From Streptomyces venezuelae (GTDB lineage: Bacteria; Actinomycetota; Actinomycetes; Streptomycetales; Streptomycetaceae): a DNA stretch of 64,000 nucleotides. The notes beneath the pieces were generated by a model, which worked only from the letters and a program-made list of their open reading frames with translations, ran no database searches and was not told the origin of the DNA. Shown in pieces: positions 48,368-58,273 of the stretch (its first letter is position 1; every line of letters begins with the position of its first letter). Both the position numbers and the translations under genes were made by a program. The stretch lies in assembly GCF_008642315.1 (NCBI RefSeq), contig NZ_CP029192.1, forward strand, positions 1,860,001-1,924,000, written 5' to 3'.

Positions 48368-49672
48368 GTGGCCATGAACACCCCGGCGACGATCGACCTC
48401 GCGCGCCTGTCCGCCATGGACCTCGCGCACGCCGCACACGTCCTGAAGGGGGTGCGCGACGCCACGCTGTCCGGGCAGCCGCCCAGACTGCTGCCGCGTC
48501 CGGTGATCGGCGACTCGTGGAGACGGATGATCCTCGGCGGGGTCGATCCGGACCGTGACTTCAGGTCCCGGCTGCTGAGCGACGAGGAGCTGGAGGAGCG
48601 CCGCCGCACCTCGCCGCTCCGGGAGATCCTGCCCGTCCTGCGCGACGGTCTCGTCTCCGTGGCGGACGCGGCGCAGCACATCATGGCCGTCAGCGACGCG
48701 GACGGACGTGTGCTGTGGCGCGAGGGCAGCGCCGCCGTGCTCCGCAAGGCGGACTCGCTCGGGTTCGAGCCGGGCGCGGACTGGGGCGAGAACGTCGTGG
48801 GCACGAACGGCATAGGGACGTCACTGGTGGTGCGGCGCCCGGTGCAGGTGTTCTCCGCCGAGCACTTCGTGCGGACCCACCACCCGTGGACGTGCACGGG
48901 CGCCCCGCTGACCGATCCGCGGGACGGCAGGCTCCTCGGCGTGGTCGACATCAGCGGACCGCTGCAGACCATCCACCCGGCGACGCTCGCGCTGGTCGAC
49001 GCGGTCGCCAAGCTCGGGGAGGCGCGGCTGCGGGAGCGGCACGTGGCGGCGCTGGACCGGCTGCGCGCGGTGGCGGCGCCGGTCCTCGCGCGGCTCGACG
49101 GTCGGGCGCTCGCGGTGGACGTGCACGGCTGGACGGCCGCGGTGACGGGCATGCCCCCTGCGGACCGTCTCACGCTCCCCAAGTCCTTCGGTGCGGGCCG
49201 CGCCTGGCTGCCGTCGCTGGGCCCCTGCCTGGTGGAGCCGCTGCCCGGCGGGTGGCTGCTGCGCCCCGAGGACCCGGGTGACGTGCCGCGGCCGGTCGCC
49301 GCGACCCGTCTCGTCCTGGACGTGAGCAGTCCGCGCCGGTGGACGCTCTCGGTGCTCGGCGGCGCCCACGACTGGACGCACGAGCTGAGCCCGCGCCACG
49401 CCGAGCTCCTCTATCTCCTCTGTACGTACCGCACGGGACGCACCGCCTCGGGGCTCGCCGAGGACATGTTCGGCGATCCCGCGCGCACGGTGACGGTGCG
49501 CGCCGAGCTCTCCCGCGTGCGGCGCTATCTGGGCGGGCTGCTCGCCCACCGGCCGTACCGCTTGCACGAGGACGTGGACGTCGACGTGGTCATGCCGGAG
49601 CGCCCCGCGGACCTCCTGCCCCACTCGATGGCCCCCGCGGTGCGCGCCGCGCGGCAGCGCATGATTCTCTGA
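48368..49672 (+). CDS. GAF-domain transcriptional regulator (AcoR-like without AAA domain)
   Basis: A 434-residue cytosolic sensor-regulator. The N-terminal part starts like sigma-54 activators of the AcoR type (RPVIGDSWRRMILGGVDPDR), followed by a GAF domain (about 95-230) with DWGENVVGTNGIGTSLVVRR and HHPWTCTGAPLTDPRDGRL. The AAA+ ATPase domain of AcoR is missing. The C-terminal ~100 residues form a winged-helix-like region (LSPRHAELLYLLCTYRTGRT, VTVRAELSRVRRYLGGLL). Such proteins in Streptomyces commonly control aldehyde or alcohol metabolism. The GTG at 48368 has AGGA upstream; an ATG two codons on is an alternative. A GNAT gene follows five bases later. Confidence 0.85.
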   Translation: MAMNTPATIDLARLSAMDLAHAAHVLKGVRDATLSGQPPRLLPRPVIGDSWRRMILGGVDPDRDFRSRLLSDEELEERRRTSPLREILPVLRDGLVSVADAAQHIMAVSDADGRVLWREGSAAVLRKADSLGFEPGADWGENVVGTNGIGTSLVVRRPVQVFSAEHFVRTHHPWTCTGAPLTDPRDGRLLGVVDISGPLQTIHPATLALVDAVAKLGEARLRERHVAALDRLRAVAAPVLARLDGRALAVDVHGWTAAVTGMPPADRLTLPKSFGAGRAWLPSLGPCLVEPLPGGWLLRPEDPGDVPRPVAATRLVLDVSSPRRWTLSVLGGAHDWTHELSPRHAELLYLLCTYRTGRTASGLAEDMFGDPARTVTVRAELSRVRRYLGGLLAHRPYRLHEDVDVDVVMPERPADLLPHSMAPAVRAARQRMIL

Positions 49673-49677
49673 GCGCC

Positions 49678-50268
49678 ATGAGCATCACAGTCACCACCTG
49701 GTCCCTCGAACAGACGTCTCCGGCCGACCTGCGACCGGCCGCCGCGCCCGACGGGGAGGACGTCCGGATCGCGCGCGCCGAGGTTCCCTCGCCCGAGTTC
49801 AGCCGGTTCCTGTACGCGTCCGTCGGCGGGGACATCCGCTGGTCCGACCGGCTCTCCCTCACGTACGCGGAGTGGCAGAAGCTGCTGGAGCGGCCGGGTG
49901 TGGAGACGTGGGTCGCGTACGAGAAGGGGACGCCGGCCGGGTACGTGGAGCTGGCGGCTCGCGGCGAGAACGGGGACGCGGCGGAGGGCGTCGTCGAGAT
50001 CGTCTACTTCGGGCTGATCCCCGCCTTCCGGGGGCGCCGCATCGGCGGCCACCTGCTGTCGTACGCCGTCGCGCGCGCCTGGGACCTGGCCGAGCGGTGG
50101 CCGGGGCTCGCGCCGACCGAGCGGGTCTGGCTGCACACCTGCTCCAAGGACGGCGAGCACGCGATGGACAACTACCGGCGGCGCGGGTTCCGGCTCTTCG
50201 ACACCAAGGTCGAGGAGGAGGCGGACGTGCCGACGCCGGGGCCGTGGCCGGGGGCCGACCGCGACTGA
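49678..50268 (+). CDS. GNAT-family N-acetyltransferase
   Basis: A 196-residue acetyltransferase. The acetyl-CoA loop lies in IVYFGLIPAFRGRRIGGHLL (R-G-R-R-I-G), and the C-terminal DNYRRRGFRLFDTKVE is the usual final beta strand. It starts at ATG 49678 only five bases after the GAF regulator stop, so the two are cotranscribed. Substrate is unknown; acetylation of a protein or small amine is possible. The frame is open far upstream only because it overlaps the regulator in another frame. Confidence 0.88.
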   Translation: MSITVTTWSLEQTSPADLRPAAAPDGEDVRIARAEVPSPEFSRFLYASVGGDIRWSDRLSLTYAEWQKLLERPGVETWVAYEKGTPAGYVELAARGENGDAAEGVVEIVYFGLIPAFRGRRIGGHLLSYAVARAWDLAERWPGLAPTERVWLHTCSKDGEHAMDNYRRRGFRLFDTKVEEEADVPTPGPWPGADRD

Positions 50269-50294
50269 ACGCCGCACGGGCCGCTGTGACCGAC

Positions 50295-50328
50295 GACACC
50301 CTTGTCCACGATACGGGACAAGGGTGTC
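50295..50328. promoter_or_regulatory. Perfect 13-bp inverted repeat in front of the sulfur operon
   Basis: GACACCCTTGTCC (50295-50307), an 8-base centre, and GGACAAGGGTGTC (50316-50328) match perfectly. ACATTTT follows, so it may end the GAF/GNAT transcript. However, a GATAAT -10-like box starts at 50338, just before the cysteine leader, which puts the repeat over the -35 region, where a repressor would sit. Both uses are possible. No regulator gene is adjacent. Confidence 0.55.
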
Positions 50329-50381
50329 CACATTTTGGATAATGCTGGACTGGGCCGAAAGTCCCGTGACACGCTTCCGGC

Positions 50382-50465
50382 ATGGATCGCACTGGAAACG
50401 CCTTGGTGAGTCGACGTCACGTCGACCTCGGCCGCATGTCCAGCGCCATGTGTCCGGCTTGCTGA
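50382..50465 (+). CDS. Cysteine-ended leader peptide of the sulfate assimilation operon
   Basis: ATG 50382 opens 27 codons ending in HVDLGRMSSAMCPAC and TGA (50463-50465). The pattern (an arginine-rich middle, RRHVDLxRMSSAMCPAC and a stop directly after cysteine codons) is that of short ORFs that precede sulfite reductase genes in many actinobacteria and are annotated as putative leader peptides. Stalling at the TGT and TGC codons when Cys-tRNA is scarce would open the downstream RNA; cysteine-rich leaders in mycobacteria act this way. The gap to sir (147 bases) has arms such as GCATG/CATGC and CCGCGC/GCGCGG for alternative folding. No strong ribosome site precedes the ATG. The mechanism is inferred, the ORF is seen. 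Confidence 0.8.
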   Translation: MDRTGNALVSRRHVDLGRMSSAMCPAC

Positions 50466-50612
50466 TCGACTCAGCACAGCCGCTCCCCATCCACTGATCC
50501 CCCTCCCTGCGCAGCGCCGCGCGCACGTCCCCGCATGCGTCCACCATGCGCGGTCACGTGCCGATTTCGCAGGTCAGAGCCGCTTTCCCGCTGCCCCGAA
50601 GGACGTACCGCC

Positions 50613-52310
50613 ATGGCCGCCACGCCAGAGAAGCCTGCCCCAGCAACGCCCCGCCGCAAGGTGAGCCGTCACCGCGGCGAGGGTCAGTGGGCCGTCGGTC
50701 ACTTCACGCCGCTCAACGGGAACGAGCAGTTCAAGAAGGACGACGACGGTCTCAATGTGCGGACACGTATTGAGACGATCTACTCGAAGCGTGGATTCGA
50801 CTCCATCGACCCGAACGACCTCCGCGGCCGTATGCGCTGGTGGGGGCTGTACACCCAGCGCAAGCCCGGGATCGACGGCGGCAAGACCGCGGTCCTCGCC
50901 CCGGAGGAGCTGGACGACGAGTACTTCATGCTCCGCGTCCGCGTCGACGGCGGCCGGCTGACCACCGAGCAGCTGCGCGTGATCGGCGAGGTGTCGCAGG
51001 AGTTCGCGCGCGGCACCGCCGACCTCACCGACCGCCAGAACATCCAGTACCACTGGATCCGCATCGAGGACGTCCCCGAGATCTGGCGCCGCCTCGAAGC
51101 CGTCGGCCTCTCGACCACCGAGGCGTGCGGCGACACGCCCCGCGTCATCCTCGGCTCCCCCGTGGCAGGCGTCGCCGAGAACGAGATCATCGACGGCTCC
51201 CCCGCCATCGACGAGATCCAGCGCCGCTTCATCGGCAACCCCGAGTTCTCCAACCTGCCGCGCAAGTTCAAGACGGCGATCTCCGGGTCGCCGCAGCTCG
51301 ACGTCGCCCACGAGATCAACGACGTCGCCTTCGTCGGCGTGCACCACCCCGAGCACGGCCCCGGCTTCGACCTCTGGGTCGGCGGCGGCCTCTCCACCAA
51401 CCCCAAGCTCGGCGTGCGCCTGGGCACCTGGGTGCCGCTCGACGACGTGCCGGACGTGTTCGGCGGCGTCATCGGCATCTTCCGCGACTACGGCTACCGG
51501 CGGCTGCGCAACCGCGCCCGCCTGAAGTTCCTCGTCGCCGACTGGGGCCCGGAGAAGTTCCGGCAGGTCCTGGAGGACGAGTACCTGCACCGGAAGCTGG
51601 CCGACGGGCCCGCCCCCGAGCAGCCCGCGGGCACCTGGCGCGACCACCTCGGCGTCCACCGCCAGCGGGACGGCCGCTTCTACGTCGGCTTCGCCCCGCG
51701 CGTCGGCCGCGTCGACGGCACCACGCTCACGAAGATCGCCGAGGTCGCCGACGCGCACGGCTCGGGCCGCCTTCGCACCACCACCGAGCAGAAGATGATC
51801 GTGCTCGACGTCGAGCAGGACCAGGTCGACTCGCTCGTCTCCGCACTCGAAGCACTCGACCTGCGGGTCAACGCCTCGCCGTTCCGGCGCGGCACCATGG
51901 CCTGCACCGGCATCGAGTTCTGCAAGCTCGCCATCGTCGAGACCAAGGCGCGCGGTGCCTCGCTCATCGACGAACTGGAGCGCCGCATCCCGGAGTTCGA
52001 CGAGCCGATCACCATCAACATCAACGGCTGCCCGAACGCCTGCGCCCGCATCCAGGTCGCCGACATCGGCCTCAAGGGCCAGCTCATACTCGACGACGAG
52101 GGCAACCAGGTCGAGGGCTACCAGGTGCACCTGGGCGGCGCCCTCGGACTCGACGCAGGATTCGGCCGCAAGGTCCGCGGCCTGAAGGTCACCGCGACCG
52201 AGCTCCCCGACTACGTCGAGCGGGTCCTCAAGCGTTTCCAGGAGCAGCGCGAGGACGGCGAGCGCTTCGCCACGTGGACCGCCCGCGCACCCGAGGAGGC
52301 CCTCAAGTGA
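50613..52310 (+). CDS. sir: Ferredoxin-dependent sulfite reductase
   Basis: A 565-residue siroheme/[4Fe-4S] enzyme that reduces sulfite to sulfide with six electrons from ferredoxin. The two NIR/SIR repeats and linker domains are complete. The cluster/siroheme ligands are Cys431 and Cys437 (ACTGIEFC) and Cys473 and Cys477 (NGCPNAC). Tyr80 (GLYTQRKPG) and Cys172 (TEACGDTPR) are 92 residues apart, as in M. tuberculosis NirA, where Tyr69 and Cys161 form a covalent cross-link next to siroheme. This supports sulfite over nitrite as substrate. The ATG at 50613 has GAAGGA nine bases upstream. It leads the cys operon and overlaps the next gene by 4 bases. Confidence 0.95.
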   Translation: MAATPEKPAPATPRRKVSRHRGEGQWAVGHFTPLNGNEQFKKDDDGLNVRTRIETIYSKRGFDSIDPNDLRGRMRWWGLYTQRKPGIDGGKTAVLAPEELDDEYFMLRVRVDGGRLTTEQLRVIGEVSQEFARGTADLTDRQNIQYHWIRIEDVPEIWRRLEAVGLSTTEACGDTPRVILGSPVAGVAENEIIDGSPAIDEIQRRFIGNPEFSNLPRKFKTAISGSPQLDVAHEINDVAFVGVHHPEHGPGFDLWVGGGLSTNPKLGVRLGTWVPLDDVPDVFGGVIGIFRDYGYRRLRNRARLKFLVADWGPEKFRQVLEDEYLHRKLADGPAPEQPAGTWRDHLGVHRQRDGRFYVGFAPRVGRVDGTTLTKIAEVADAHGSGRLRTTTEQKMIVLDVEQDQVDSLVSALEALDLRVNASPFRRGTMACTGIEFCKLAIVETKARGASLIDELERRIPEFDEPITININGCPNACARIQVADIGLKGQLILDDEGNQVEGYQVHLGGALGLDAGFGRKVRGLKVTATELPDYVERVLKRFQEQREDGERFATWTARAPEEALK

Positions 52311-52486
52311 GCGAGCGTGCCGCCCCGTTCCACTGCCCCTACTGCGGCGACGAGGACCTGCGCCCCCACGAGGCCGGACACGGCGCGTGGGAATGCGGAG
52401 CCTGCAACCGGGCCTTTCAGCTGAAGTTCCTCGGGCTGCTCGCCCGGGGCGTTCAGCACACCAGCAGTGGAGAGAACCAGATATGA
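52307..52486 (+). CDS. 59-residue zinc-ribbon protein between sir and cysH
   Basis: A small protein with two CxxC pairs: CPYCGDEDLRPHE and CGACNRAFQLKFLG. Four cysteines in this spacing make a rubredoxin-like knuckle that would bind zinc or iron. The GTG start overlaps the sir stop (GTGA) and its own stop overlaps the cysH start (ATGA), so all three are translationally coupled. It corresponds in position to the small hypothetical gene between sir and cysH in S. coelicolor. It may help deliver electrons or sulfur, or load a cluster; none of this is shown. It is missed by length filters. Confidence 0.85.
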   Translation: MSERAAPFHCPYCGDEDLRPHEAGHGAWECGACNRAFQLKFLGLLARGVQHTSSGENQI

Positions 52487-53196
52487 CGACTGCTCAGGAC
52501 CAGAAAGCGCGCACGGACGACGAGTTGAAGGCCCTCGCCGAGCAGGCCGGACGCGACCTGGAGGACGCCTCCGCCCTGGAGATCCTCCAGTGGGCCGCCG
52601 ACACCTTCGGGGCACGCTTCTGCGTGACCTCCTCGATGGAGGACGCGGTCGTCGCCCACCTCGCCTCGCGCGCCAGGCCCGGCGTCGACGTCGTGTTCCT
52701 GGACACCGGCTACCACTTCCCGGAGACCATCGGCACCCGTGACGCCGTCGAGGCCGTCATGGACGTCAACGTCATCACCTTGACGCCCCGTCAGTCCGTG
52801 GCCGAACAGGACTCGGTGTACGGCGCGAAGCTCCACGACCGCAACCCGGACCTGTGCTGCAAGCTGCGGAAGGTCCAGCCCCTGGAGGAGGGTCTCGCGG
52901 GGTACGTCGCGTGGGCCACCGGGCTGCGCCGCGACGACTCGCCGAGCCGCGCGAACACCCCGGTCGTCGGCTGGGACGAGAAGCGCGGCAAGGTCAAGAT
53001 CTCGCCGATCGCCCGCTGGACCCAGGACGACGTCGACGCGTACGTCACCGAGCACGGTGTCCTCACCAACCCGCTCCTGATGGACGGCTACGGCTCGGTG
53101 GGCTGCGCCCCCTGCACCCGCCGCCTCCTGGAGGGCGAGGACGCCCGCGCGGGCCGCTGGGCCGGCAACGCCAAGACCGAGTGCGGGATCCACTGA
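52483..53196 (+). CDS. cysH: Adenylylsulfate/phosphoadenylylsulfate reductase, 4Fe-4S type
   Basis: A 237-residue thioredoxin-dependent reductase that converts activated sulfate to sulfite. The [4Fe-4S] ligands CC (125-126) and CxxC (208 and 211, GCAPC) are present, and the catalytic Cys234 is in the C-terminal ECGIH. CC...CxxC is typical of assimilatory reductases that prefer APS, as in M. tuberculosis. The P-loop-like phosphate site is replaced by SSMEDAVV. The ATG overlaps the zinc-ribbon stop, and the stop overlaps the cysC start by one base. Because cysC follows, either APS or PAPS could be used; the sequence favours APS. Confidence 0.93.
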   Translation: MTTAQDQKARTDDELKALAEQAGRDLEDASALEILQWAADTFGARFCVTSSMEDAVVAHLASRARPGVDVVFLDTGYHFPETIGTRDAVEAVMDVNVITLTPRQSVAEQDSVYGAKLHDRNPDLCCKLRKVQPLEEGLAGYVAWATGLRRDDSPSRANTPVVGWDEKRGKVKISPIARWTQDDVDAYVTEHGVLTNPLLMDGYGSVGCAPCTRRLLEGEDARAGRWAGNAKTECGIH

Positions 53197-53756
53197 TGAC
53201 ACAGACCCGGGAGAACCACGTGACGACCGGAGCCACCGTCTGGCTCACCGGCCTGCCCAGCGCCGGAAAGACCACCATCGCGTACGAACTGGCGGGTCGG
53301 CTGCGCGCCGAGGGCCGCCGCGTGGAGGTCCTCGACGGCGACGAGATCCGCGAGTTCCTCTCGGCGGGCCTCGGCTTCAGCCGCGAGGACCGGCACACGA
53401 ACGTGCAGCGCATCGGCTTCGTCGCCGAACTCCTGGCGCGCAACGGCGTGCTGGCCCTGGTGCCGGTGATCGCGCCGTTCGCCGACAGCCGCGAGGCGGT
53501 GCGCAAGCGCCACCAGGCCGGGGGCACCGCGTACCTGGAGGTGCACGTCGCGACGCCGGTCGAGGTCTGCTCCGTACGCGATGTGAAGGGCCTGTACGCG
53601 AAGCAGGCCGCGGGCGAGATCTCCGGCCTCACCGGGGTCGACGACCCCTACGAGGCGCCCCAGACGCCCGATCTGCGCATCGAGTCGCAGGACCAGACCG
53701 TGCAGGAGTCAGCGGCGGCGGTTCACGCGCTGCTCAGCGAAAGGGGTCTCGCATGA
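53196..53756 (+). CDS. cysC: Adenylylsulfate kinase
   Basis: A 186-residue APS kinase that phosphorylates APS to PAPS with ATP. The P-loop is GLPSAGKTT, then EVLDGDEIREFLSAGLGFSR and VQRIGFVAELLARNGV, the APS-binding loop and RKRHQAGG-like lid, and VRDVKGLYAKQ. The ATG at 53196 overlaps the cysH stop (TGATG). A GTG at 53220 has a better ribosome site (GGGAG) and would give a shorter, more usual N-terminus; either is possible. It ends in a 4-base overlap with cysD. With a 4Fe-4S CysH nearby, PAPS may serve sulfotransferases rather than reduction. Confidence 0.93.
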   Translation: MTQTRENHVTTGATVWLTGLPSAGKTTIAYELAGRLRAEGRRVEVLDGDEIREFLSAGLGFSREDRHTNVQRIGFVAELLARNGVLALVPVIAPFADSREAVRKRHQAGGTAYLEVHVATPVEVCSVRDVKGLYAKQAAGEISGLTGVDDPYEAPQTPDLRIESQDQTVQESAAAVHALLSERGLA

Positions 53757-54691
53757 CGACCGTCGCCACAGTGACCGACGAGGGCACCGACAGCCCGTAC
53801 GCGCTCAGCCACCTGGACGCCCTGGAGTCCGAGGCGGTGCACATCTTCCGCGAGGTGGCGGGCGAGTTCGAGAACCCGGTGATCCTGTTCTCCGGCGGCA
53901 AGGACTCGATCCTGATGCTGCACCTGGCGCTGAAGGCGTTCGCCCCCGCGGCGATCCCCTTCTCGCTGCTGCACGTGGACACGGGGCACAACTTCCCCGA
54001 GGTGCTCGAATACCGCGACCGCGTCGTGGCCGAGCACGGGCTGCGGCTGCATGTCGCGTCCGTGCAGGACTACATCGACCGCGGTGTCCTGAAGGAGCGC
54101 CCGGACGGCACCCGCAACCCGCTCCAGACGCTGCCGCTCACGGAGAAGATCCAGAGCGAACGCTTCGACGCGGTCTTCGGCGGCGGCCGCCGCGACGAGG
54201 AGAAGGCCCGCGCCAAGGAGCGCGTGTTCTCGCTGCGCGACGAGTTCTCGCAGTGGGACCCGCGCCGCCAGCGCCCCGAACTGTGGCAGCTCTACAACGG
54301 CCGCCACGCGCCGGGCGAGCACGTCCGCGTCTTCCCGCTCTCCAACTGGACCGAGCTGGACGTCTGGCAGTACATCGCCCGCGAGGACATCGAACTCCCC
54401 GGAATCTACTTCGCCCACGAGCGTGACGTCTTCCAGCGCTCCGGGATGTGGCTGACCGCGGGCGAGTGGGGCGGCCCCAAGGAGAGCGAGACCGTCGAGA
54501 AGCGGCTCGTGCGCTACCGCACGGTCGGCGACATGTCCTGCACCGGCGCCGTCGACTCCGACGCCACCACGCTGGACGCCGTCATCACCGAGATCGCCGC
54601 GTCCCGCCTCACCGAGCGCGGCGCGACCCGCGCCGACGACAAGATGTCCGAGGCCGCGATGGAAGACCGCAAGCGCGAGGGGTACTTCTAA
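53753..54691 (+). CDS. cysD: Sulfate adenylyltransferase subunit 2
   Basis: A 312-residue ATP pyrophosphatase that joins ATP and sulfate to make APS. The PP-loop is FSGGKDS (about residues 46-52), with LLHVDTGHNFPEVLEYRD and the later FGGGRRDEEKARAKERVFSL. The C-terminal MEDRKREGYF is standard. It starts in a 4-base overlap with cysC and ends two bases before cysN, and works with the CysN GTPase as a heterodimer. Confidence 0.96.
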   Translation: MTTVATVTDEGTDSPYALSHLDALESEAVHIFREVAGEFENPVILFSGGKDSILMLHLALKAFAPAAIPFSLLHVDTGHNFPEVLEYRDRVVAEHGLRLHVASVQDYIDRGVLKERPDGTRNPLQTLPLTEKIQSERFDAVFGGGRRDEEKARAKERVFSLRDEFSQWDPRRQRPELWQLYNGRHAPGEHVRVFPLSNWTELDVWQYIAREDIELPGIYFAHERDVFQRSGMWLTAGEWGGPKESETVEKRLVRYRTVGDMSCTGAVDSDATTLDAVITEIAASRLTERGATRADDKMSEAAMEDRKREGYF

Positions 54692-54693
54692 CC

Positions 54694-56061
54694 ATGAGCA
54701 ACAGCACCACCGAGCCGGTCAAGCCGCTCTCCACCGAGCAGTTGTCGGCCACCACCCTGCTGCGGTTCGCCACCGCCGGTTCCGTCGACGACGGCAAGTC
54801 CACCCTGGTGGGCCGCCTCCTCCACGACTCCAAGTCGGTCCTCACCGACCAGCTGGAGGCCGTCGAGCGCGCCTCCGCGAGCCGCGGCGCCGACGCCCCC
54901 GACCTGGCACTGCTCACCGACGGCCTGCGCGCCGAGCGCGAGCAGGGCATCACCATCGACGTCGCCTACCGCTACTTCGCCACGGCCCGGCGCCGGTTCA
55001 TCCTCGCCGACACCCCGGGCCACGTGCAGTACACCCGCAACATGGTCACCGGCGCCTCCACGGCCGACCTCGCCGTGGTCCTCGTCGACGCCCGCAACGG
55101 CGTCATCGAGCAGACCCGCAGGCACGCCGCGGTGGCCGCGCTGCTCCGCGTCCCGCACGTCGTCCTCGCCGTCAACAAGATGGACCTCGTCGCGTACGAC
55201 GAGACGGTCTTCGCGAAGATCGCCGAGGAGTTCACCGCGTACGCAGGCGAACTGGGCGTACCGGAGATCACCGCGATCCCGATCTCGGCGCTGGCCGGTG
55301 ACAACGTCGTGGAGCCGTCCTCCAACATGGACTGGTACGGCGGCCCGACCGTCCTGGAGCACCTGGAGACGGTCCCGGTCAGCCACGACCTCGCCACCTG
55401 CCACGCGCGCCTGCCCGTGCAGTACGTGATCCGCCCGCAGACCGCCGAGCACCCCGACTACCGCGGCTACGCGGGCCAGATCGCGGCCGGTGCCTTCCGG
55501 GTCGGCGAACCCGTGACGGTGCTGCCCTCGGGCCGCACCTCGAAGGTCGCCGGGATCGACCTGCTGGGGCAGCCGGTGGACGTGGCGTGGACGCCGCAGT
55601 CCGTCACGCTGCTCCTGGAGGACGACATCGACGTCTCCCGCGGCGACCTGATCGTGCCGAGCGGCGACGCCCCCGCGACCACGCAGGACGTCGAGGCGAC
55701 GGTCTGCCACGTCGCGGACACCGAGCTCTCCGTCGGCCAGCGGGTGCTGCTCAAGCACACCACCCGCACGGTCAAGGCGATCGTCAAGGAGATCCCGTCG
55801 CGGCTGACCCTCGACGACCTCTCCCAGCACCCGGAGCCCGGCCGGCTCGTCGCCAACGACATCGGCCGGGTCAGGATCCGCACGGCCGAGCCGCTCGCGC
55901 TCGACTCATACGCGGACTCGCGCCGCACCGGGTCCTTCCTGCTGATCGACCCGTCGGACGGCACGACGCTCGCGGCCGGAATGGCGGGCGACGCGTTCGC
56001 CACGCCCGCCGACCAGGCCGCGGCGGGCGCCGCCACCGAGGACGAGGGCTGGGACTTCTGA
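54694..56061 (+). CDS. cysN: Sulfate adenylyltransferase subunit 1 (GTPase)
   Basis: A 455-residue translation-factor-like GTPase whose GTP hydrolysis drives APS synthesis by CysD. Motifs are GSVDDGKSTL (G1), GITIDVAYRYF (G2), DTPGHVQ (G3), NKMD (G4) and SAL (G5), with two beta-barrel domains behind. There is no fused APS kinase domain, in line with a separate cysC. It starts two bases after cysD. The operon then reaches a 34-codon ORF and a strong hairpin before the transporter genes. Confidence 0.96.
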   Translation: MSNSTTEPVKPLSTEQLSATTLLRFATAGSVDDGKSTLVGRLLHDSKSVLTDQLEAVERASASRGADAPDLALLTDGLRAEREQGITIDVAYRYFATARRRFILADTPGHVQYTRNMVTGASTADLAVVLVDARNGVIEQTRRHAAVAALLRVPHVVLAVNKMDLVAYDETVFAKIAEEFTAYAGELGVPEITAIPISALAGDNVVEPSSNMDWYGGPTVLEHLETVPVSHDLATCHARLPVQYVIRPQTAEHPDYRGYAGQIAAGAFRVGEPVTVLPSGRTSKVAGIDLLGQPVDVAWTPQSVTLLLEDDIDVSRGDLIVPSGDAPATTQDVEATVCHVADTELSVGQRVLLKHTTRTVKAIVKEIPSRLTLDDLSQHPEPGRLVANDIGRVRIRTAEPLALDSYADSRRTGSFLLIDPSDGTTLAAGMAGDAFATPADQAAAGAATEDEGWDF

Positions 56062-56062
56062 C

Positions 56063-56167
56063 ATGACCTACGTAGACGTCTACGCGACGTTCGCCAAGGA
56101 GGGCGGCCGCATCGGCAGCGGCGCCCTCGGCAGCGGGCAGGGCGGAGTCGCGCGATGTGCGGAGTAA
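56063..56167 (+). CDS. 34-codon ORF after cysN
   Basis: A tiny frame from ATG 56063 (one base after the cysN stop) to TAA 56165-56167, beginning MTYVDVYATFAKEGG and ending with a glycine-rich stretch. Its first codons form the 14-bp perfect palindrome CGTAGACGTCTACG (56071-56084). Coupled translation from cysN is easy at this spacing. It has no family I recognise and may be chance; a leader peptide for the hairpin that follows is another idea. Confidence 0.3.
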   Translation: MTYVDVYATFAKEGGRIGSGALGSGQGGVARCAE

Positions 56168-56179
56168 CGCCTCCGGCGG

Positions 56180-56214
56180 GAACGGGGCGCGCACAGCACG
56201 TGTGCGCCCCCGTT
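56180..56214 (+). terminator. Strong hairpin between cysN and the transporter genes
   Basis: A 15-bp stem (GAACGGGGCGCGCAC at 56180-56194 with 56200-56214, one G-U pair) closes a 5-base loop, AGCAC. TCCTCG follows, with no T tract. It would end most cys transcription or be an attenuator or RNA-processing site that sets transporter levels. It lies 127 bases before the transporter gene start. Confidence 0.7.
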
Positions 56215-56340
56215 CTCCTCGTATCCGCAGCGATCGCAGTACCCGCGCTCCGTGCGCGGTCATCCCGAAGACGAAGACCTACCGATCTCCCGGCCACGAC
56301 CTGACGGCGTGCGCCCGGGCCGACGAGGGGACCACCTCCC

Positions 56341-57444
56341 GTGCCTGCTCCACGTACCCGACTCGCCGCCATCGCGGCGCTGCCCCTCCTCGCCCTGGCG
56401 CTCGGCGCCTGCGGCTACGGCTCCGACGCCTCCGACGAGGACGGCAAGTCGAAGGTCGCCGAGGGTGCGAAGAAGATCGAAGACCTGGACAGCGTGAAGA
56501 TCGGGTACTTCCCGAACCTCACCCACGCCACCGCCCTGGTCGGCAACCAGGAGGGCCTGTTCCAGAAGGAGCTAGGCGGCACCGAGGCCAAGTACGCGCA
56601 GTTCAACGCGGGCCCCTCGGAGATCGAGGCACTGAACGCGGGATCGATCGACATCGGCTGGATCGGCCCCTCGCCCGCCATCAACGGCTACACGAAGTCG
56701 CAGGGCAAGAACCTGCGCATCATCGGCGGCTCGGCGTCCGGCGGCGTGAAGCTCGTCGTGAACCCGAAGAAGATCAAGTCCCTGGACGACGTCAAGGGCA
56801 AGAAGATCGCCACCCCGCAGCTCGGCAACACCCAGGACGTGGCGTTCCTCAACTGGATCGCCGAGCGGGGCTGGAAGGTCGACGCGCAGAGCGGCAAGGG
56901 CGACGTGTCGGTGGTCCGCAGCGACAACAAGGTCACCCCTGACGCCTACAAGTCCGGTTCCCTGGACGGCGCCTGGGTGCCGGAGCCGACCGCGTCGAAG
57001 CTGGTCGCCGAGGGCGGCAAGGTACTGCTCGACGAGTCCGACCTGTGGCCGGACAAGAAGTTCGTGATCACCAACATCATCGTGCGGCAGGAGTTCCTCA
57101 AGGAGCACCCGAAGGTCGTCGAGGCCGTGCTGCGCGGCGCCGTGAAGACCAACGCGTGGATCGCGAAGAACCCGGAGAAGGCCAAGGCCGCCGCGAACGC
57201 GCGGCTGAAGGCGGACGCCGGGAAGCCGCTGCCCGCCGAGGTGCTCGACCCGGCGTGGAAGTCGATCCAGACGACGAACGACCCGCTGGCCGCGACGCTC
57301 GACGCCGAGGCCGACCACGCGGTCAAGGCCGGTCTCCTGGAGAAGCCCGACCTCAAGGGCATCTACGACCTCGGCCCGCTGAACAAGGTCCTCAAGGCCG
57401 AGGGCGAGTCCCCGGTCGACGACGCCGGACTCGGCGTCAAGTAA
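56341..57444 (+). CDS. Sulfonate/sulfate ABC transporter, substrate-binding lipoprotein
   Basis: A 367-residue lipoprotein of the SsuA/NitT-TauT family. The lipobox is ALALGAC, so it is anchored on the outer face of the membrane. Conserved parts include VKIGYFPNLTHATALVG, EIEALNAGSIDIGWIGPSPA and KIATPQLGNTQDVAFLNWIA. Substrates of this family are alkanesulfonates, taurine, sulfate or nitrate. Its place after cysDN and before a siroheme chelatase points to a sulfur source. The GTG at 56341 follows GAGGGG by ten bases. Monooxygenase genes (ssuD/tauD), which would mark a sulfonate system, are absent here, so sulfate itself is possible. Confidence 0.9.
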   Translation: MPAPRTRLAAIAALPLLALALGACGYGSDASDEDGKSKVAEGAKKIEDLDSVKIGYFPNLTHATALVGNQEGLFQKELGGTEAKYAQFNAGPSEIEALNAGSIDIGWIGPSPAINGYTKSQGKNLRIIGGSASGGVKLVVNPKKIKSLDDVKGKKIATPQLGNTQDVAFLNWIAERGWKVDAQSGKGDVSVVRSDNKVTPDAYKSGSLDGAWVPEPTASKLVAEGGKVLLDESDLWPDKKFVITNIIVRQEFLKEHPKVVEAVLRGAVKTNAWIAKNPEKAKAAANARLKADAGKPLPAEVLDPAWKSIQTTNDPLAATLDAEADHAVKAGLLEKPDLKGIYDLGPLNKVLKAEGESPVDDAGLGVK

Positions 57445-57484
57445 CCCGGCAGCCGACGTTCCCAGTTCCCAGGAGGTGACGACC

Positions 57485-58273
57485 ATGGCCACGACTCTCG
57501 CCAAGGCCGCGGAGGACACCCGCACCACGGCCGAGCACGCCGCACGGATCGAGCACGTCTCGAAGTCGTTCGGCGGCCCCGCCGGACCCCAGCTCGTCCT
57601 GGACGACATCACCCTCGATGTCGCGCCCGGCGAGTTCGTCACCCTCCTGGGAGCCTCGGGCTGCGGCAAGTCGACGCTGCTCAACCTGGTGGCCGGGCTC
57701 GACGAGCCGTCCGCGGGCACCATCACCACGGACGGCCGTCCGGCCCTGATGTTCCAGGAGCACGCGCTGTTCCCGTGGCTGACCGCGGGCAAGAACATCG
57801 AACTCGCCCTGAAGCTGCGCGGCGTGCCGAAGGCGGACCGGCGTCCGAAGGCCGAGGAGCTCCTCGGACTCGTCCGGCTGCAGGGCGCGTACGGCAAGCG
57901 GGTGCACGAGCTGTCCGGCGGCATGCGCCAGCGCGTCGCCCTGGCCCGCGCACTCGCCCAGGACAGCAAGCTCCTGCTGATGGACGAGCCGTTCGCGGCG
58001 CTCGACGCCATCACCCGTGACGTCCTGCACGACGAGCTGACCCGCATCTGGCGCGAGACGAACGTCTCCGTCCTGTTCGTCACGCACAACGTGCGCGAGG
58101 CCGTGCGCCTCGCCCAGCGCGTCGTGCTCCTCTCGTCGCGCCCCGGCCGGGTGGCGCACGAGTGGCGGGTCGACATCCCGCACCCGCGCCGCATCGAGGA
58201 CACCGCCGTGGCGGAACTGTCCGTCGAGATCACCGAACAACTGCGTGGGGAGATCCGCCGCCATGGCCACTGA
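57485..58273 (+). CDS. Sulfonate/sulfate ABC transporter, ATP-binding protein
   Basis: A 262-residue ATPase. The Walker A is GASGCGKST, the signature LSGGMRQR, and the Walker B LLLMDEPFAALD, then the H-loop VTHNVREA. AGGAGGT at 57471-57477 lies seven bases before ATG 57485; a GTG at 57476 is closer to that site and less likely. The stop overlaps the permease start by 11 bases. It energises import by the permease and lipoprotein next to it. Confidence 0.94.
   Translation: MATTLAKAAEDTRTTAEHAARIEHVSKSFGGPAGPQLVLDDITLDVAPGEFVTLLGASGCGKSTLLNLVAGLDEPSAGTITTDGRPALMFQEHALFPWLTAGKNIELALKLRGVPKADRRPKAEELLGLVRLQGAYGKRVHELSGGMRQRVALARALAQDSKLLLMDEPFAALDAITRDVLHDELTRIWRETNVSVLFVTHNVREAVRLAQRVVLLSSRPGRVAHEWRVDIPHPRRIEDTAVAELSVEITEQLRGEIRRHGH

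Follow-up and report, generated by a model that had tools for sequence, protein, structure and literature searches.

We favour, with moderate confidence, the reading that the short ORF upstream of the sulfite reductase gene sir in the window (the whole 64,000-nucleotide stretch of Streptomyces venezuelae DNA analysed here) is a regulatory leader of the sir-cys operon, in which a shortage of cysteine would be sensed at a UGU codon and would raise sir expression.

A conserved leader ORF precedes sir

The sequence-only reading had described a 27-codon ORF shortly before sulfite reductase, and its coordinates, stop codon and peptide were confirmed (Table 1), as was the gap of 147 nt between the ORF and the sir ATG (50613) in the window. 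The peptide scores 31.9 bits against the NCBIfam model NF042934 (“putative leader peptide”), passing its cut-off of 27, and reaches a weak 25 bits against NF042936 (Ms4527A Cys-rich leader), below the cut-off of 45. By the NF042934 match, and by a mycobacterial uORF at the equivalent place, the window ORF is a member of an already known class, the cysteine-linked leader peptides; for the Streptomyces sir leader itself we found no published account in the literature searched.

Table 1. Positions, in the window, of the leader, the sir operon and the signals around them
Feature	Positions	Strand	Remarks
Predicted promoter, TGGACT (50346-50351), 18-nt spacer, CACGCT (50370-50375)	50346..50375	+	
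Leader ORF, 27 codons	50382..50465	+	ATG at 50382, TGA at 50463-50465; peptide MDRTGNALVSRRHVDLGRMSSAMCPAC
Conserved peptide motif RRHVDLGR, codons 11-18	50412..50435	+	From alignments of leaders
GCCAU-G-UGUCC segment	50445..50455	+	Could pair with the sir start AUGGC (50613-50617) and the SD GGACG (50601-50605)
Codon 24, TGT, conserved Cys	50451..50453	+	11 residues past the motif His; next base C
Codon 27, TGC, second Cys	50460..50462	+	Not conserved (8/66)
C-rich, G-poor stretch, leader stop to sir SD	50466..50598	+	Candidate Rho loading region
sir Shine-Dalgarno (SD), AAGGAC	50599..50604	+	
sir (NIR_SIR domains)	50613..52310	+	First gene of the cys operon
Downstream ORFs: PAPS reductase, APS kinase, cysD-like, cysN-like, NMT1-type binding protein, ABC ATPase	52387..58273	+	Starts unrefined

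When the 344 nt upstream were shuffled by mononucleotide 20,000 times, the pattern R.[HA][VI]D[LF].R..[SGAT]..C never appeared in a plus frame. All 150 Streptomyces genomes sampled gave a leader-peptide match at E<=1, with a top hit at or below 1.2e-5 in 149 of them and of 0.0019 in the remaining one, and the motif lay upstream of a sir-like start at 66 of the 70 Streptomyces places fetched; the set of 66 Streptomyces sir leaders used below omits L080, L086, L092 and L095, which the regular expression did not match. The sir leader is a conserved ORF, linked to sulfur genes and probably translated.

Sulfite reductase is called from the NIR_SIR domains of sir and from its cysHCDN-like neighbours, and against NCBIfam the sir protein stayed below the own cut-off of every model. 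Among the downstream ORFs, the cysD-like one has a PAPS_reductase domain and the cysN-like one a GTP_EFTU domain, and the gene order of the operon is the same as that described for SCO6100-SCO6094. The leader is located upstream of a cysteine-metabolism operon, as are attenuators of the type described by Canestrari et al.

A single UGU codon is kept at a fixed distance from the motif

Across the leaders the constant element is R-x-[HA]-V-D-L-x-R, followed by a Cys codon at +11 from the His/Ala. In the 66 aligned Streptomyces sir leaders this Cys (Cys24 in the window) is invariant and always encoded by TGT, whereas the terminal Cys is kept in just 8. Two Cys codons near the end of the ORF had been put forward as the sensing site; both are present in the window, but they are not a conserved pair, and tandem Cys codons as the sensor were rejected since only one Cys is conserved.

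Outside the Streptomyces sir set the +11 codon is UGU in 167 of 178 leaders, pooled from three sets (these leaders are related, so that none of the leader counts amounts to independent trials and a Fisher p computed from them is no real probability, and the leaders L210/L247 and L194/L269 are each present in two of the pooled sets). The sets are the paralogous leaders (TGT 75 of 84, TGC 4, stop 3, Gly 2), the non-Streptomyces class leaders among the matches listed (TGT 58 of 59, TGC 1), and the non-Streptomyces class sir leaders (TGT 34 of 35), the last 34 being assigned to 15 families by the labels of the tool; in L255, the exception, an insertion of one residue shifts the TGT to +12. Ordinary genes use UGU for 15-20% of their Cys codons (22 of 144 in the window genes, 18 of 92 in the genes downstream of class leaders), and the remaining Cys codons of the leaders outside the Streptomyces sir set are UGC in 185 cases and UGU in 58. 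The base 3' of the +11 UGU is C in 124, T in 34, A in 8 and G in 1 of the 167 leaders; in the window genes, 71 of 144 Cys codons are followed by G. We found neither the UGU rule nor the motif in print in the literature searched, a body of work that lacked most subscription papers.

The 88 paralogous leaders omit L006, which showed no leader, and L054-L059, which are weak (18.5-23.8 bits). Four were left out of the codon count, namely L039 (the place of L003), L042 and L046 (sir leaders) and L150 (unparsed), and five were skipped in the count of the Arg at -2.

The motif was also seen without Cys at +11: L131, L132 and L133 have a stop at that position, L128 and L136 a Gly. The gene that follows has a GST_C_2 domain for L128 and L132, gives no Pfam hit for L131 and L133, and is sir-like for L136. 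In L051, L053 and L154, TVDL replaces HVDL and there are several Cys, with TGC at +11 and TGT at +9.

Selection seems to act on both the peptide and the RNA. All 83 leaders have the Arg at -2, encoded variously by CGC, CGG, CGT, CGA and AGG, and this constancy under five synonymous codons argues for selection on the peptide. Synonymous codons are also conserved inside close leader classes, which points to some RNA-level constraint besides the peptide; the Streptomyces sir leaders retain rare codons (among them AGT in 65 of 66, TTG in 60 and GGA in 63), and in the consensus fold these fall in a hairpin inside the ORF. Since the regular expressions imposed H/A, D, L/F and R+5 in the 83-leader set, and H/A, V/I and D in the class sir set, values of 100% at those sites carry no evidential weight; no such constraint applied to the Arg at -2 (83-leader set), to the Cys and its codon, or to the base that follows.

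Leaders of this class are found across actinobacteria and before several sulfur genes

Matches to NF042934 were found in 24 of 296 genomes sampled from the phylum, in 197 of 296 class genomes (72 of 105 genera) and in none of 14 control genomes; sir itself is present in 95 of 118 class genomes. From 84 non-Streptomyces sir matches 40 loci were fetched, chosen by sir alone, and the leader lies upstream of 35 of them, the pattern being absent at the other five (L248, L254, L258, L260 and L262).

In the genome of the window, other leaders precede genes for a flavin reductase, a sulfatase, a rhodanese, an ABC permease, an SDF symporter and a cysteine dioxygenase, a further one precedes a ThiS protein with a PALP enzyme (cysM-like), and a weaker case is found upstream of an SBP_bac_3 binding protein. 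The leader before the cysteine dioxygenase (L062, G000:C1:2434089) is of an HMDL type common to eight Streptomyces leaders, among which the downstream gene was identified for L062 alone. Since the dioxygenase consumes cysteine, a leader before it does not fit a simple rule in which genes are on when cysteine is low, and among our own observations we regard this as the strongest challenge to the model proposed here.

The leader transcript is predicted to be leaderless

The promoter predicted upstream of the ORF (Table 1) would start transcription at the A of the leader ATG, and the leader transcript is accordingly predicted to be leaderless. At the predicted -10 place, 6-7 nt upstream of the ATG, 63 of the 66 Streptomyces sir leaders have the hexamer [TC]AnnnT (CACGCT in 58), together with a TGGAC/TTGAC-type -35, a count made without a shuffle control. 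Of 85 paralogous leaders, 40 have TAnnnT at 5-8 nt from an in-frame start, on its upstream side, versus 4.5 expected from shuffles; of 65 class leaders 37 have it there, versus 3.8 expected, these 65 being the top of the matches listed (25 supplied by the tool and 40 picked by hand). Leaderless genes of S. lividans show an equivalent -10 placement in the available text of PMC8079986. The promoter scan also returned GGGACA-17-GATAAT at 50315-50343, which was not our first choice because its GATAAT is not conserved when the upstream regions are aligned.

The interval that separates the GNAT gene from the leader has an inverted repeat at 50299-50330 of the window, ACACCCTTGTCC...GGGACAAGGGTGT, perhaps the end of the upstream transcript.

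Possible routes from the leader to sir

Ribosome-mediated attenuation, as the sequence-only reading had proposed it, is retained in part: the conserved sulfur-linked leader and the precedent in M. smegmatis argue for it, while the pair of Cys codons as the sensor and a clear RNA switch, on which it had also drawn, were not borne out. With a ribosome footprint blocked at the Cys codon, the predicted mean SD accessibility over the 66 leaders rose from 0.387 to 0.403 (+0.016), the shift exceeding 0.1 upward in 6 leaders and downward in 1. For the window leader the predicted values were 0.39 when free, 0.57 with the ribosome at the Cys codon and 0.31 with it at the stop, and its fold was not unusual compared with shuffles (z -0.18). 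Folding of single sequences thus makes a weak case for a fixed RNA switch. No terminator-like site was found in 50230-50700, and attenuation of transcription of the trp type, by an intrinsic terminator between leader and sir, was rejected. Nor did any Rfam regulatory RNA match at E<=1 in 49500-51500, and a known Rfam element was rejected likewise.

A structural signal did emerge in the consensus. RNAalifold of 33 Streptomyces sir leaders paired GCCAU with the sir start and UGUCC with the SD, at an energy of -43.3 versus -21.0 +/- 3.7 for column shuffles; all five start pairs can form in 57 of the 66 leaders and all five SD pairs in 55, and among the 11 short of the full SD pairing two are a parsing artefact of GGAGG. 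Such pairing could by itself be the whole mechanism, with translation attenuated by the Cys segment acting as an anti-Shine-Dalgarno, UGU kept for its pairing with the SD and the nascent chain idle. Duplexes of matched Cys regions and SDs are indeed stronger than mismatched ones (-18.04 versus -16.50 in 90 leaders, 0 of 5000 permutations), but this result was inflated by class replicates: once each of the 36 classes (179 leaders in all) was represented by a single leader, the matched advantage was not significant (p 0.10, 0.086 and 0.086; 0.15 for a control segment over the motif). Moreover, the helix hardly varies on either strand, which leaves almost no covariation, and outside Streptomyces GGAC SDs stand alongside UGUCGC, UGUUGC or UGUAUC (by eye only). 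Pairing also leaves unexplained the rarity of G after UGU across leaders with differing SDs, and as the sole mechanism we consider it unlikely. A switch of this kind in the Streptomyces sir leaders is nonetheless possible, as modelled. In L102 a compensating change was noticed, again by eye only, with UGUCU and AGAC.

Termination by Rho is the other route that we considered. A stalled ribosome would cover the beginning of the C-rich stretch, and on its leaving Rho would end transcription before sir. The composition agrees, C exceeding G in the 60 nt past the stop in 66 of 66 sir leaders, 84 of 86 paralogous leaders and 61 of 65 class leaders (among the matches listed), compared with 16 of 38 upstream and 26 of 38 downstream regions of window genes, although C-richness by itself is a weak sign of Rho loading and these controls come from one window. 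The lack of an intrinsic terminator in the 50230-50700 interval is also as Rho would have it, and in the available part of Seliverstov 2005 Rho is proposed for the Mycobacterium cys leaders; the M. smegmatis attenuator, by contrast, is described as translational in the portion of that account available. We hold Rho-dependent attenuation to be somewhat improbable.

The region might instead be mainly a DNA regulatory site, for SenR or NdgR, with the conservation of the ORF secondary. The accessible part of PMC4991794 reports a predicted SenR site, CCGGGCCGCT, 152 nt before SCO6102, whose replacement abolished binding in EMSA, and an NdgR ChIP signal upstream of SCO6102 appears in partly available published work. 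However, the motif and its UGU recur before unrelated genes and at 35 of the 40 non-Streptomyces sir loci, the SenR word matches the final leader codons CCG GGC CGC T of some relatives, and the window leader, which ends in CCG GCT TGC (50454-50462), does not have the word at all. A mainly DNA-level role is very improbable in our view. The word CCGGGCCGCT coincides with the last leader codons of 16 relatives (L271-L286) and ends exactly 152 nt before the ATG in 3 of the 16; as judged from these relatives, the mutation used in the EMSA may also have altered the leader ORF.

A proposed decoding model for the sir leader

In the reading that we prefer, a regulatory leader sensing cysteine at UGU, RNA polymerase would start at the leader ATG and a ribosome would load on the predicted leaderless mRNA. 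It would make R-R-H-V-D-L-G-R-M-S-S-A-M and then meet UGU at codon 24, which would be slow as a minority Cys codon, read by G-U wobble and followed by a pyrimidine. When Cys-tRNA drops, the ribosome would wait there, and the motif, by then some 10 residues beyond the P site and near the tunnel constriction, may strengthen the wait. By analogy with M. smegmatis, the waiting ribosome would raise expression of sir: it would either prevent the Cys-codon segment from pairing with the SD and start codon of sir, or deny Rho access to the C-rich stretch.

Decoding slows at wobble codons and where a pyrimidine follows the codon, and residues about 10 from the P site sit near the tunnel constriction. 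A tRNA survey of the genome (58 of 66 hits, the other 8 all being 82-88 nt long) returned two tRNA-Cys genes, both with anticodon GCA; since the Cys tRNAs found have this anticodon only, UGU would be read by G-U wobble. From the bias in codon and next base we infer selection on decoding, perhaps helped by the nascent chain. One codon of this sort, set at a constant spacing from a conserved peptide motif, is the form that a stall-prone reading head would be expected to take.

Extended to actinobacterial cysteine leaders in general, this becomes a tentative proposal, which may well prove wrong, of a codon-specific sensor assisted by the nascent chain: the motif would set the ribosome, and a single wobble-read UGU with its pyrimidine, 11 residues on, would do the reading. 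A bolder extension would tie UGU decoding to a sulfur-dependent modification of tRNA-Cys beside the anticodon, so that the codon would report sulfur status as well as charging; ms2i6A37 is a modification of tRNAs that read UNN codons.

DNA-binding regulators have been credited with the control of Streptomyces sulfur assimilation by cysteine, and the leader ORF would add a layer at the level of the ribosome, one that several sulfur operons in this genome would have in common. The UGU rule makes the vague idea of a “Cys-rich uORF” a one-base question, UGU versus UGC in the same protein, and would separate charging, decoding and nascent-chain models.

Comparison with known leader systems

The available text of PMC8079986 describes S. 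lividans leader peptides that are leaderless amino-acid leaders, as the sir leader is predicted to be; among the eight listed there none is assigned to cysteine, and for some (trpL1, ilvL and leuL2, for example) a terminator is described. In the same text metL (MSTTSDRTPATEATTTPGARCMCRRMCAF), which precedes metNIQ, is assigned to methionine but carries three Cys close to the end of the peptide, and may instead be a leader for cysteine. Seliverstov 2005, in the part available, describes Cys leaders that also have Cys codons near the stop, lack a terminator and possibly involve Rho, but the set comprises Mycobacterium, P. acnes and B. longum, and in that part Streptomyces is not named for cysteine. 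As far as the accessible descriptions go, uORFC-8-2, before cysS in Rhodobacterales, shares the presence of Cys codons in a uORF, yet these are tandem, with UGC dominant, and an intrinsic terminator is present. In the portion of PMC3862929 available, the serine-codon sensor of B. subtilis sinR resembles the sir leader in that synonymous codon choice carries the signal, and differs in that it concerns serine and lies within a regulator gene, without a leader.

NF042934, whose cut-off the window leader exceeds, names the family alone, with neither mechanism nor codons. The closest precedent by position is mycobacterial: Shell 2015 describes a leaderless Cys-rich uORF before nirA/Msmeg_4527, and such a uORF is reported (Canestrari 2020) to be a cysteine-responsive attenuator in M. 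smegmatis. The place before nirA/Msmeg_4527 is alike and the peptide related (the sub-threshold NF042936 match), but the mycobacterial polycysteine leaders have a run of Cys codons, whereas the window leader has two separated Cys, one of them conserved in the 66 leaders.
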